A DNA stretch of 43,343 nt, from assembly GCA_026400815.1 (NCBI GenBank), contig JAPLOI010000082.1:1-43343 (forward strand), given 5' to 3'. The position numbers were made by a program, and so were the translations under genes. This document shows positions 21,315 through 30,767 of this stretch, piece after piece. The stretch comes from Alphaproteobacteria bacterium (GTDB lineage: Bacteria; Pseudomonadota; Alphaproteobacteria; Acetobacterales; Acetobacteraceae). The notes beneath the pieces are model-generated. The model was not told where the DNA came from. It did no database searches and saw nothing but the letters and a program-made list of their open reading frames with translations. Positions within the stretch are counted from its first letter, which is position 1. Each line of letters opens with the position of its first letter.

Positions 21315-21321
21315 GGCAAGG

Positions 21322-21535
21322 CCAGGGCTCTGCCCTGGACCCGCCAGGGACCTGAGGTCCCTGGACCCTCTTCCGTTTTCCGCCTTCGGCGGGGAGGGGC
21401 CATCGAGGCAGCGGAGAGGCCACGCCGGCCCCTCCCCGCCGAAGGCGGACAGAAAATGGGGTCTGGGGCCTAAGGCCCCGTCACGCGTGAGCGTGCTAGC
21501 GCACGACGGGGTCGAGGGGCAGAGTCCCTCGCCTT
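21322..21535. repeat. Palindrome-rich intergenic repeat block
   Basis: Contains CCAGGGC-TCT-GCCCTGG (21322-21338), CCAGGGACCTGAGGTCCCTGG as a perfect stem-loop (21344-21364), a 22-bp perfect inverted repeat (21380-21401 and 21427-21448, beginning CCGCCTTCGGCGG) with a 25-base loop, and GGGGCCTAAGGCCCC (21465-21479). It fills almost all of the 240-base gap between the binding protein and the monooxygenase. Similar CCAGGG/GGGGCC blocks are common between genes in high-GC alphaproteobacteria as far as I recall. No protein is likely here. Confidence 0.7.
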
Positions 21536-21554
21536 CCTTCCGGGGGGAACAACG

Positions 21555-23230: not shown

Positions 23231-23314
23231 GCGCACATCCTACCCCACCCTGCCCCCCTTGAGCACCCGCCCAACCCGGCGCATCGTTCCCTTCGCCACC
23301 AGGAGGAACCGCCA

Positions 23315-24184
23315 ATGGACGACCCCGGCCAACCGGTCGGCTACATGGAGCGAACGCGCCTCTACTACCGCGCGCTCGGCTACAAGGCCGACTACCAATG
23401 GGCGCATAACGAAACCGCCCCCTTCACCCCCCTCGCCAAGCCGCTCACCGAAGCGCGCATCGCCCTGCTGACCACCGCCAGCCCGCTCGACGGCTCCAAC
23501 AAGGACGCAAAAGGCTGGCGCCACGTCTGGTCCGCCCCGGTCGACCCGGCGCCGGATGCGCTGGACACCAGCGACCTCGCCTGGGACCGCGAAACCACCC
23601 ACACCAACGATCGCGAAAGCTTCCTGCCCCTGGCCGCCGCCGCCGCCCTGGCGCGGGAGGGCCACTTTGCCGGCCTCACCCCCCGCTTCCACGGCGTGCC
23701 GACGGAATACAGCATCCGCAAGACGCTGGCCCAGGACGCACCGGAAACCCTCGCTCGCCTACGCGAAGACAAGGCCGACGCCGCCATCCTCTGCGCCATC
23801 TGACCGGTCTGCCATCAAACCGTGAGTTTGATCGCCCGGCATCTGGAAGAGAACGGCATCCCCACCGTCGTCATCGGCTCCGCAAAAGACATCGTGGAAT
23901 ACACCGCGGTCGCCCGCTTCGTGTTCACCGATTTCCCCCTCGGCAACCCCGCCGGCCTGCCAGGCCAGGTGGAAATGCAGAAGGCCATCGTCAGCCAGGC
24001 ACTGAACCTGCTGCAGACCGCCACCGCCCCGCAAACCACCGAAGCCGCCCCGTTCCAGTGGAACGGCGACCCCGGCTGGCGCGCAGTCTACAACCGGGTC
24101 ACCCCGGAAAACGCGGAATACCTGCGCCAGAAAGGCGAGGCCCGCCGCCGCATGATGCTGGCCAAGAAGCCGCAGACAGACTGA
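23315..24184 (+). CDS. GrdB/PrdB-like selenoprotein with in-frame TGA (Sec) codon
   Basis: Read through one TGA (23801-23803) this is a 289-residue protein of the glycine/sarcosine/betaine/D-proline reductase selenoprotein B family: MERTRLYYRALGYKADYQWAHN near the start, FHGVPTEYSIRKTLAQDAPETLARL, then DAAILCAI-U-PVCHQTVSLIARHLEENGIPTVVI. Sec would be residue 163 in a U-x-x-C redox motif; proteobacterial relatives, as I recall, have Cys-P-V-C-H-Q at this place. The frame is identical on both sides and no other stop occurs. AGGAGGA precedes the ATG. A SECIS-like hairpin follows the TGA (see 23801-23832). The clostridial reductase partners are not nearby; these proteobacterial forms probably act as thiol-dependent redox enzymes. 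The alternative is a Cys-to-stop pseudogene. Confidence 0.8.
23801..23832 (+). promoter_or_regulatory. Candidate bacterial SECIS element (UGA plus hairpin)
   Basis: The UGA is followed by 10 bases and then a perfect 7-bp stem ATCAAAC (23814-23820) and GTTTGAT (23826-23832) with the 5-base loop CGTGA. The G at loop position 2 and the loop start 17 bases after the UGA meet the published bSECIS rules as I know them. The stem uses CAA, AGT and TTG codons, unusual in this C/G-ending genome, which suggests the RNA shape is selected. Confidence 0.65.
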
Positions 24185-24192
24185 TCCGGAAA

Positions 24193-24219
24193 GCTGGTCG
24201 CAGCCCGCCTGCGACCAGC
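24193..24219. terminator. Bidirectional hairpin between convergent genes
   Basis: A perfect 10-bp stem GCTGGTCGCA and TGCGACCAGC with a 7-base loop, lying in the 46-base gap between the selenoprotein gene (+) and the Ldh2-type gene (-). There is no marked U-tract on either strand. Confidence 0.6.
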
Positions 24220-27975: not shown

Positions 27976-29586
27976 TCAAGCCGCCACCGCCTCCCGCCCC
28001 AGCACCGCCCGCGCCACCGCCTCCGCCACCCGTATCCCATCCACCCCCGCCGACAGGATGCCGCCGGCATACCCGCACCCCTCGCCGGCCGGAAACAGCC
28101 CCTTCGTGTTGGTGCTCTGCAAATCCGCCCCCCGCGGCAGCCGCACCGGCGAGGAGGTCCGCGTCTCCACCCCCGTCATGACGGCATCCGCCATGTCGAA
28201 CCCCGGAATCTGCCGCCCGAACACCGGCAACGCCTCGCGGATCGCCGCCACTGCGAACTCCGGCAGGCACTTCGACAAATCCGTCAGGTGCACCCCCGGC
28301 TTGTAGCTCGGCAGCACGCTCCCGAACGCCGTCGAAGCCCGCCCGGCCAGAAAATCCCCCACCAACTGCCCCGGCGCCTCATAATTCCCGCCCCCGGCCG
28401 CAAACGCCAGGCTCTCCCATTTCCGCTGGAACGCGATCCCCGCCAACACCCCGCCGGGATAATCCGAGGGATCGATCCCCACCACGATCCCAGCATTCGC
28501 ATTCCGCTCCGCCCGCGAATACTGGCTCATCCCGTTCGTCACCACGCGGCCTTCCTCGCTGGTCGCCGCCACCACCGTGCCCCCGGGGCACATGCAGAAC
28601 GAATAAACGCTGCGCCCGTTGGCACAGTGATGCACCAGCTTGTAATCCGCCGCCCCCAGCGCATCGTGCCCCGCGAATGTCCCGAACCGCGCCCGATCAA
28701 TCAACGATTGCGGATGCTCAATGCGCACCCCGATCGAGAACGGCTTCGCCTCCATCGCCACCCCGATCTCGTGCAGCCGCGCGAAGGTATCCCGCGCCGA
28801 ATGCCCCACCGCCAGAATCACATGGTCGGCCGCAATCCGCTCCCCGCTCTCCAGCACCACCCCGCGCACTGCCCGCCGCTCATCCAGTTCCAGGTCCACC
28901 ACCTGGCTCCCCCAGCGATACTCCCCGCCCAGCGCCTCGATCGTCGCGCGGATATGCTCCACCATCGAAACCAGCCGGAACGTCCCGATATGCGGCTTGG
29001 CCACCCACAAAATCTCTTCGGGAGCCCCCGCGCGCACGAACTCCTCCAGCACCTTCCGCCCGCGATGCCCGGGGTCCTTGATCTGCGAATACAGCTTCCC
29101 GTCTGAGAACGTGCCGGCCCCCCCCTCACCGAACTGCACGTTCGATCCGGGGTTCAGCAGCCCCCGCCGCCACAACCCCCAGGTATCCTTCGTGCGCTCC
29201 CGCACCACCTTGCCGCGTTCCAGGATGATCGGCCGGAACCCCATCTGCGCCAGCACCAGCGCGGCCAGGATCCCGCACGGCCCCGTCCCCACCACCACCG
29301 GCCGCGCCGCCCCCGAAGGCGCCCGCCCGACAAACCGGTAATCGGTATCCGGCGACACCGACACATGCTTGTCCCCGGCCAGCCGCGCCAGCACCCCGGC
29401 CTCGTCGGCAAGTTCCACATCCACCGTGTAGCTGAACACGATCGCAGCCTTGCGCCGCGCATCATGCGCCCGCCGCGCCACATGCACAGCCCGCACCGCC
29501 TCCACCTCCAGCCGCGCGGCCACGGCGGCGCCCAGCGCCTCGGGCGGATGGTCCAATGGCAATCGCAGTTCGGTCACACGGATCAT
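27976..29586 (-). CDS. FAD-dependent oxidoreductase (COG2509-like)
   Basis: A 536-residue flavoprotein. The N-terminal ~90 residues form a small basic domain (AVHVARRAHDARRKAAIVFSYTVDV); the FAD domain starts with PVVVGTGPCGILAALVLAQMGFRPIILERG near residue 105, then GLLNPGSNVQFGEGGAGTFSDGKLYSQI, HVILAVGHSARDTF, and a C-terminal LFPAGEGCGYAGGILSAGVDGIRVAE. This matches the large uncharacterised 'FAD-dependent dehydrogenase' group (COG2509), with YtfL/HI0933-like topology. The physiological substrate is unknown. The ATG at 29586 begins the homologous region; an upstream in-frame ATG at 29673 overlaps the divergent gene. Confidence 0.85.
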   Translation of the reverse strand: MIRVTELRLPLDHPPEALGAAVAARLEVEAVRAVHVARRAHDARRKAAIVFSYTVDVELADEAGVLARLAGDKHVSVSPDTDYRFVGRAPSGAARPVVVGTGPCGILAALVLAQMGFRPIILERGKVVRERTKDTWGLWRRGLLNPGSNVQFGEGGAGTFSDGKLYSQIKDPGHRGRKVLEEFVRAGAPEEILWVAKPHIGTFRLVSMVEHIRATIEALGGEYRWGSQVVDLELDERRAVRGVVLESGERIAADHVILAVGHSARDTFARLHEIGVAMEAKPFSIGVRIEHPQSLIDRARFGTFAGHDALGAADYKLVHHCANGRSVYSFCMCPGGTVVAATSEEGRVVTNGMSQYSRAERNANAGIVVGIDPSDYPGGVLAGIAFQRKWESLAFAAGGGNYEAPGQLVGDFLAGRASTAFGSVLPSYKPGVHLTDLSKCLPEFAVAAIREALPVFGRQIPGFDMADAVMTGVETRTSSPVRLPRGADLQSTNTKGLFPAGEGCGYAGGILSAGVDGIRVAEAVARAVLGREAVAA

Positions 29587-29660
29587 GCCGCCGATATAGT
29601 CGCCTCGCCCGCGCCCTCCAACGTCCGCTATGATGCATCCCAAGAGGGGGCGCGAACGCC

Positions 29661-30767
29661 ATGACCGAGTCACACCAGGGCACCGCGCCCGAATTCGACA
29701 CCGAACGCCTGGAATCCTACCTGAAAGCCCGCCTCCCGGGCCTCGCCGGCGCCCTACGCCTCGAACGCATCGGCGGCGGCCAATCCAACCCCACCTTCTT
29801 CGCCAGCTTCGACACGCGCGAGCTCGTCCTGCGCAAGAAGCCCGCCGGCGACCTCCTCCCCAGCGCCCACGCCATCGACCGCGAATTCCGCGTCATGACC
29901 GCGCTGCGCGGCACGAAAATCCCCGTCCCCGACTGCCTGTTCTACGAAACCGACGCCGCCATCATCGGCACCCCGTTCTACGTGATGGACCGCCTGCAAG
30001 GCCGCGTCTTCCCCACCTACGAAGCCGAAGGCGTCTCCCCCGCCGACCGCCGCGCCATGTACCACTCCATGGCCGAAACCCTCGCCCACCTCCACGCCAT
30101 CGACCCCGCCACGGTCGGCCTGTCCGATTTCGGCCGCCCCGGCAGCTACTTCGCCCGCCAGATCGCCCGCTGGACCAGGCAATACGAACTCTCCAAAACC
30201 ACCCCGGTCCTCGACATCGAATATCTCAACATCTGGCTCCCGAAAAACATCCCCGAAGGCGAAACCACCGCCCTCTGCCACGGCGATTTCCGGCTGGGGA
30301 ACCTCATGTTCCACCCCACGGAGCCCCGCGTCATCGCCGTGCTCGATTGGGAACTCTCCACATTGGGAGACCCGCTCGCCGACCTCGCCTTCAACGCCAT
30401 GGCCTGGCGCTCGCGCCCCGAGCACTACGGCGGCATCGCCGGCCTCAACCACCAGGCCCTCGGCATCCCCACCGAGGAAGAACACATCGCCGACTACGTC
30501 CGCGCCGCCAAACCCACACCGGGCCTCTGGCCCTTCCACTTCGCCTTCGCCCTCTGGCGCTTCGCCGTCATCTTCGAAGGCATCGCCGCGAGGGTCCGCG
30601 CCGGCAACGCCGCCGCCGCCGATGCCGCCAACACGCTGTCCCTCAGCCGCGCCTTCGCCCGCCAAGCCATGGAAGCCATCGACGGCCCCCCGCCCTATGC
30701 CGGCAGCGCCGAAGGCGCGCGAGGCAACTTCGAAGACGGAGATCGCACATGCATGACGCCCCCCTGA
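29661..30767 (+). CDS. Phosphotransferase family protein (APH fold, ACAD10-like)
   Basis: A 368-residue kinase-like protein: nucleotide loop RIGGGQSNPTFFASF, LVLRKKPAGDLLPSAHAIDREFRVM (ATP Lys and Glu), catalytic CHGDFRLGNLMFHP and metal-binding VLDWELSTLGDPLADL. This is the aminoglycoside-phosphotransferase fold in the branch related to the N-terminal domain of human ACAD10/11, which phosphorylates 4-hydroxyacyl-CoAs ahead of beta-oxidation. It is followed at once (19-base overlap) by an enoyl-CoA hydratase, so a role in CoA-ester degradation rather than drug resistance is likely. Confidence 0.88.
   Translation: MTESHQGTAPEFDTERLESYLKARLPGLAGALRLERIGGGQSNPTFFASFDTRELVLRKKPAGDLLPSAHAIDREFRVMTALRGTKIPVPDCLFYETDAAIIGTPFYVMDRLQGRVFPTYEAEGVSPADRRAMYHSMAETLAHLHAIDPATVGLSDFGRPGSYFARQIARWTRQYELSKTTPVLDIEYLNIWLPKNIPEGETTALCHGDFRLGNLMFHPTEPRVIAVLDWELSTLGDPLADLAFNAMAWRSRPEHYGGIAGLNHQALGIPTEEEHIADYVRAAKPTPGLWPFHFAFALWRFAVIFEGIAARVRAGNAAAADAANTLSLSRAFARQAMEAIDGPPPYAGSAEGARGNFEDGDRTCMTPP

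Follow-up and report, generated by a model that had tools for sequence, protein, structure and literature searches.

Background

Clostridial PrdB works together with PrdA, and the UxxC motifs in the GrdB/PrdB superfamily, U being selenocysteine (Sec), have been proposed to act via a selenenylsulfide. Selenoproteins of the UxxC type named "proline reductase PrdB" ranked third in abundance among the families of the Sargasso Sea survey, with 42 genes, according to an excerpt of PMC1088965, and the corresponding excerpt on the Global Ocean Sampling (GOS) data gives 235 Sec and 110 Cys sequences of "PrdB" (PMC2398784). D-proline reductase (TIGR04483) is listed with UxxC in portions of PMC13188914 and PMC9312934, and a count of 2006, as excerpted from PMC1794560, credits the Alphaproteobacteria with a single selenoprotein family, formate dehydrogenase.

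The gene described here lies at 23315-24184 of a 43,343-nucleotide stretch of alphaproteobacterial DNA, the whole of which was analysed and is called the window below. Its best explanation as a whole, to which we give a probability of about 0.92 from comparative sequence evidence, is a gene predicted to encode a PrdB-like selenoprotein. Because PrdB UxxC selenoproteins, described from marine data since 2005 in the excerpts cited above, and RefSeq selenoprotein B names are already on record, we count the gene as an addition to a known kind, of which it would be a further member.

The gene and its in-frame TGA codon

The features to which the text refers are as follows, all on the forward strand.

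23301-23306 (+): Shine-Dalgarno-like AGGAGG, 8 nt before the ATG, read directly off the sequence
23315-24184 (+): predicted PrdB-like selenoprotein gene, from ATG to the terminal TGA at 24182-24184; 289 codons, predicted Sec at codon 163
23801-23803 (+): UGA codon predicted to be read as selenocysteine (Sec163), first residue of UPVC, from the TGA/Cys column and the PrdB alignment
23810-23812 (+): TGC codon for Cys166, which completes the UxxC pair; unchanged throughout 92 distinct relatives and also found in clostridial PrdB
23814-23832 (+): bacterial SECIS-type hairpin; stem 23814-23820 / 23826-23832, apical loop CGTGA at 23821-23825, conserved G at 23822

The frame is interrupted once only, by the TGA at residue 163, and the codons CCG GTC TGC that follow directly complete a U-P-V-C motif; an earlier note on this DNA had singled out the same TGA as the sole interruption and as the first place of a CxxC-type motif, and both frame and motif bear it out. 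The same note had called the selenoprotein "hidden", which is only partly right: table 11 ORF calling does split the gene, into 162 aa (23315-23803) and 120 aa (23822-24184), but RefSeq already names Cys relatives of the protein as members of a selenoprotein B family. An open frame is in itself no proof of a Sec reading, because 96 of the 900 TGAs considered in the window are also followed by at least 126 open codons. The note's further claim of a family match on both sides of the TGA stands by way of a Cys paralogue in the same genome, which is 46% identical over residues 3-285 and reads NCPVCHQT against IUPVCHQT in the window gene; by profile, the half after the TGA matches the NCBIfam PrdB model on its own (46.5 bits), and the half before it, taken alone, has no NCBIfam match at E<=0.001. 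Two separate genes, one of 162 aa ending at the TGA and one of 120 aa beginning at the GTG at 23822, would reproduce the ORF split exactly, and yet we consider this arrangement very improbable: the Cys relatives, the paralogue of the same genome included, are each one continuous protein, a GTG start would remove UPVCHQT, no Shine-Dalgarno-like site is seen before 23822, and the covarying hairpin described below would be left unexplained.

The main comparison comprised 74 sequences, namely 73 loci (L025-L096 and the paralogue, L002) plus the window gene, with a few near-duplicates among them (72 distinct proteins, 40 with U). At column 163 they have TGA in 42 cases, TGC in 27 and TGT in five, with no other codon, and 23 further loci add four TGA and 19 Cys; aligned with its homologues, as the earlier note had proposed, the TGA column is Cys in every one that lacks the TGA. 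The stretch UPVCHQT is invariant or nearly so across the family. Purifying selection acts on both sides of the TGA, with dN/dS values in nine pairs of 0.065-0.384 after the codon and 0.072-0.305 before it. These observations bear on the possibility of a nonsense mutation, a pseudogene with a decaying downstream part or a sequencing error. A lone stop in a frame that is otherwise open, within a draft assembly (5.11 Mb in 89 contigs, 97.6% complete), is what such an error typically looks like. Such an origin is nonetheless extremely improbable for a codon that recurs in more than half of the aligned sequences, including those from isolate genomes of Reyranella (L063, L076, L086), that is followed by sequence still under purifying selection, and that stands before a covarying hairpin.

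The SECIS-type hairpin

Exactly ten bases separate the TGA from a perfect 7-bp stem (ATCAAAC at 23814-23820, GTTTGAT at 23826-23832), and the earlier note's coordinates and its description of this stem, its loop CGTGA and the G at loop position 2 are correct. A comparison with bSECIS constraints, also its proposal, places the hairpin within the published limits in every respect (loop of 5, stem of 7, G at loop position 2, spacing of 17 nt, -14.0 kcal/mol; limits as given in the Fig. 2 legend of PMC13188914), and the stem covaries. The energy is that of the 40 bases from the TGA, with a z of -2.37 and 5 of 200 shuffles as good; over 61 bases z is just -1.32 (24 of 200 shuffles as good). An Rfam search of the hairpin returned no family over the gathering score. 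The hairpin alone proves little, because a SECIS-like hairpin under a loose definition stands behind 89 of 897 TGAs (about 10%) when all frames and both strands of this GC-rich window are taken, and we have ruled it out as a stand-alone proof of Sec on account of that chance rate; only one of the 897, the TGA at 23801, is followed by a hairpin of exactly the present geometry, with a spacer of 10 nt, 7 Watson-Crick pairs and a loop of 5 nt that has G in one of its first two places. The stem was also said to draw on the rare codons CAA, AGT and TTG, with which the counts in five neighbouring genes agree (CAA for 8 of 72 Gln, AGT for 3 of 122 Ser, TTG for 18 of 203 Leu). The PrdB-like gene itself uses AGT and TTG a single time each, at codons 171-172.

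It is the comparative evidence that makes the hairpin, and the Sec reading with it, firm. The loop CGTGA is present in all 42 TGA members of the main comparison, and the stem is complete (7/7) in 40 and has 6 of 7 pairs in the other two; two further TGA family members likewise have the loop CGTGA, with stems of 7/7 and 6/7. Among the 32 Cys members no full stem is found and the loop CGTGA occurs once, and 18 further Cys rows have 3-6 stem pairs. The 33 distinct TGA rows show standard pairing in 99.1% of pair cells. Changes on both sides affect 21 of the cells, where shuffling gives a mean of 7.8, and the covariation score reaches 0.240 against a shuffled mean of 0.125; neither value was equalled in 500 shuffles. 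Two of the five measures, the number of pairs changed on both sides (2) and that of further pair types (3), are no higher than in the shuffles, and because the sequences are related the shuffles overstate significance. The clearest single exchange is one in which both changes are silent, the third base of a Gln codon (CAA/CAG) pairing with the first base of a Leu codon (TTG/CTG) as A-U in 18 rows and G-C in 14, with one unpaired. In the 32 Cys rows covariation is absent (pairing 67.9%, score 0.037, 497 of 500 shuffles as high).

Selenocysteine machinery

The earlier note had asked for selA, selB, selD and a tRNA-Sec, and all four are present in the host genome: SelA scores 575.8 bits (cut-off 267.9), SelB 337.6 (242.25), SelD 293.2 (125) and the tRNA-Sec 78 (gathering score 47), the last with anticodon tca by ARAGORN. 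A second match to the tRNA-Sec model, at 47.2 bits, was rejected as a tRNA-Leu. SelD makes up the C-terminal part of a 702-aa protein in which it is fused to a pyridine nucleotide-disulfide oxidoreductase at the N-terminus (L138 6602-8710 (-), G000:C37); this protein also matches a "fusion_not_SelD" model below that model's cut-off (466.7 of 700). The presence of SelA, SelB and tRNA-Sec leads us to take the fusion protein as SelD. A gene for a 475-aa protein (L136 355-1782 (-), G000:C47) with a thioredoxin-like CPTC motif near its start and no NCBIfam or Pfam match at E<=0.001 lies about 5 kb from selB. A Sec-containing formate dehydrogenase was not found in the host genome with models TIGR01591 and TIGR01553: the former has one match over its cut-off, with no internal stop, and the latter none.

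The features of a selenoprotein gene thus include, at this locus, an in-frame UGA aligned with Cys or Sec of homologues, a SECIS geometry and Sec machinery in the genome, and they lead us to conclude that UGA 23801 almost certainly encodes selenocysteine. Readthrough of the UGA by other means, through a near-cognate tRNA or a reassignment of UGA to Trp or Cys, draws on the fact that what has been established is the full-length frame and not the residue inserted. We give this very little credence, in view of the tRNA-Sec, SelA, SelB and SelD of the host, a column that is otherwise always Cys and a SECIS-type hairpin kept by TGA members only; UGA is moreover also used as a stop here, because both the PrdB-like gene and its neighbour at 27976-29673 end in TGA. 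With Sec inserted, and along the lines of established selenocysteine biology, SelB carrying Sec-tRNA-Sec would bind the hairpin at 23814-23832 and the ribosome would read UGA 23801 as Sec instead of stopping, to give a protein of 289 residues for which UGA 24182 would be the real stop.

A gene for SelA over the cut-off is present in all eight genomes that have a TGA copy (in G237 this is only the distant L127) and in 11 of the 20 that have Cys copies alone. The link between selA and the TGA form is thus weak (one-sided Fisher p 0.024), and the genomes are themselves related. Since selA occurs in those 11, the Sec machinery does not depend on the PrdB-like gene alone. Contrasts within two genera point both ways: G227 has a TGA copy and selA and G253 has neither, and G154 has both where G246 has neither over the cut-off, but G212, from the same genus, has selA without a TGA copy.

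Family and structure of the protein

The best NCBIfam model for the window protein is PrdB (TIGR04483), which gives 75.3 bits (residues 35-249) where the cut-off is 300 and a true PrdB reaches 422.6. It was first described as GrdB-like, which holds only in the sense that the GrdB/GrdF/GrdH models TIGR01917, NF040794 and NF040795 are also matched, at 31.7, 35.3 and 36.3 bits and far below their cut-offs of 602.2, 800 and 775 (those of the GrdB-type models span 65.45-800); PrdB is the nearer named family, and it too is matched below its cut-off. Pfam gave no match at E<=0.001, PF07355 (the GRDB superfamily) included. Against PF07355 (cut-off 22 bits) the Cys paralogue scores 36.0 and the Sec member L049 21.3, with none for L063 and L085, and the UGSC family model NF041046 gives 19.8 bits of a cut-off of 125. 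The PrdB gene of Terrisporobacter is an annotated CDS that runs through a TGA, and this TGA aligns with residue 163. In the 92 distinct relatives 24 residues are invariant, and Sec163 and Cys166 are the only Sec/Cys positions kept universally.

An AlphaFold2 model, built with Cys at 163 from 80 aligned sequences, has a pLDDT of 93.9 and a pTM of 0.92, and places residue 163 between a strand (156-160) and a helix (164-179). Foldseek returned no PDB fold match with E<=0.001 among 727 matches, and searches for sequence relatives in the PDB gave best E values of 0.3 (phmmer) and 0.57 (profile). By analogy, and with less certainty than the decoding steps, Sec163 and Cys166 may form a selenol/thiol pair at the start of the helix and reduce a substrate via a selenenylsulfide.

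Partners, neighbours and likely reaction

PF09338, which detects PrdA at 79.2 bits, was used to look for a PrdA/GrdE-type partner in 16 genomes, several of them drafts: 12 with a Sec-type gene, the host among them (no match anywhere in that search), and G212, G246, G253 and G514, searched together with a Terrisporobacter control. The control matched and none of the 16 genomes did, and no grd or prd neighbours were seen among the annotated genes of the window. The idea that the gene product is a functional subunit of a reductase acting on D-proline, glycine, sarcosine or betaine draws encouragement from the named models nearest to it, PrdB and the GrdB group, and from the 13 of the 24 invariant residues that are the same in clostridial PrdB (D91, D99, Sec163, Cys166, His167, E178, R201 and G210 among the residues in common). 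The idea is very improbable all the same, the scores being far under equivalog cut-offs and neither a partner nor neighbouring reductase genes having been found in the genomes and window just described. For want of a PrdA/GrdE-type partner in those genomes, neither the D-proline nor the glycine reductase reaction should be taken for granted.

Clustering of neighbouring ORFs at 45 loci (44 and the window) found no conserved operon partner, the widest cluster other than the gene itself reaching 15 of 45; the ORFs were unfiltered, some of them antisense, and several loci have short flanks. Neighbouring genes are conserved only among close relatives and are otherwise varied (TctC receptor, TcuA-like dehydrogenase, D-2-hydroxyacid dehydrogenase, glycerol-3-phosphate dehydrogenase, 2OG oxygenase, MFS, DoxX, TPR and others), so that no substrate can be deduced from those scanned. 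The result with PF09338 and the lack of conserved neighbours favour a stand-alone or differently partnered selenol/thiol reductase. Because no PrdA/GrdE-type partner was found, the protein probably acts by itself or draws on an unrelated reductant, and its substrate would be other than D-proline or glycine. We lean towards a stand-alone redox enzyme that would use its UxxC pair; that the PrdB-like selenoproteins without a partner make up a distinct enzyme family of Alphaproteobacteria and relatives, with a Sec-dependent reduction other than that of D-proline or glycine, is a proposal for which we see about even chances. No paper on the function of stand-alone PrdB-like proteins was found in the literature searched, which takes in little of the subscription journals.

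Distribution and Sec/Cys history

Relatives were found at E<=1e-20 in 28 of 299 genomes in an even draw of the order, and at E<=1e-12 in 16 of 398 drawn from the phylum. For 94 distinct rows a quick maximum-likelihood tree, from which the motif and hairpin columns were excluded and in which several long branches (L127, L130, L091 and others) were flagged as unsafe, needs at least four changes between Sec and Cys, three of them forced by starred branches. The window gene falls within a group with support 97 that has 38 Sec and 9 Cys rows (47 in total), and the nine Cys rows, from Bradyrhizobium, Stellaceae and other MAGs, form one nested group (support 99); the other large group, of 41 rows (support 81), is mostly Cys with four Sec rows. 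Nesting of these Cys rows among Sec rows suggests that Sec was lost there, although change counts alone give no direction. In the nested group L111 keeps the loop CGTGA and 6 of 7 pairs, and L085 and L089 have CGTAA; their hairpins look like decayed SECIS elements.

Two further occurrences of the TGA may be recorded here. In one alphaproteobacterial genome, G436, both paralogues have the TGA: these are L110 and L125, which share 62% and 48% identity with the window protein and fall into different main groups of the tree. The more distant PrdB-like gene at L127 536-1762 (-) (G237:C467), with 30% identity and scores of 95.4 bits for TIGR04483 and 31.3 for PF07355, has TGA in a UPFC motif and a C-terminal extension; it has a loop CGTGA at the same distance although the protein there differs, and its fold z is only -0.06.

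Other features of the window

Just after the terminal TGA, at 24193-24219 (+), there is a second, strong hairpin, with an 11-bp stem, a loop CCCGC and a z of -3.44. Its distance of 19 nt from that TGA would suit a SECIS element, but neither of the first two loop positions is a G. A terminator between convergent genes is one possible reading, and the hairpin, standing at what is predicted to be a true stop UGA, offers a natural contrast to the Sec UGA. Elsewhere, between the SBP and LLM genes, a long antisense ORF with a low-complexity-looking reading crosses the intergenic stretch 21315-21554, which may hold an intergenic repeat element.

Significance

The predicted gene adds a well-supported selenoprotein with a covarying SECIS to a class that was once, in the excerpted count of PMC1794560, credited with formate dehydrogenase alone. 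The missing PrdA/GrdE-type partner argues that automatic names such as "proline reductase" or "glycine reductase" are unsafe for these single proteins. If the family is indeed distinct, the name "proline reductase" would be wrong for many abundant selenoproteins of marine metagenomes, and the enzyme would be one main reason to keep the Sec machinery in genomes where no Sec formate dehydrogenase is found. A single small protein makes the question of its real reaction directly testable, and the close Sec and Cys relatives, together with the nested Cys group in which one member has the hairpin loop, form a good natural series for the study of Sec/Cys exchange.

Comparison with known systems

Clostridial PrdB (TIGR04483), as represented by that of Terrisporobacter, is about 29% identical to the window protein over residues 39-249 and has the Sec and Cys of its UxxC motif at the same columns, followed by His; the window protein differs in its motif (UPVC, against UGTC in PrdB), in an extra C-terminal stretch and in having no PrdA-type partner that we could find. 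The UGSC family (seleno)protein (NF041046 / PF24696) resembles it through a weak match round the motif and through Sec in UxxC, but the likeness extends over residues 131-191 only. RefSeq proteins named "glycine/sarcosine/betaine reductase selenoprotein B family protein", for example from Roseomonas and Haematobacter plasmids, are 45-47% identical and of similar length and have CxxC at the UxxC column; they differ from the window gene in having Cys for Sec and no SECIS hairpin. With the bacterial SECIS consensus, in the form given by the legend in PMC13188914, the hairpin at 23814-23832 agrees in all four of the constraints stated there. The "PrdB" selenoproteins of the Sargasso Sea and GOS surveys, as portrayed in the excerpts of PMC1088965 and PMC2398784, share with the window gene the UxxC motif, a relationship to Pfam07355 and the occurrence of Sec beside Cys forms, and from this comparison by description only we infer that many of those sequences belong to the stand-alone family.
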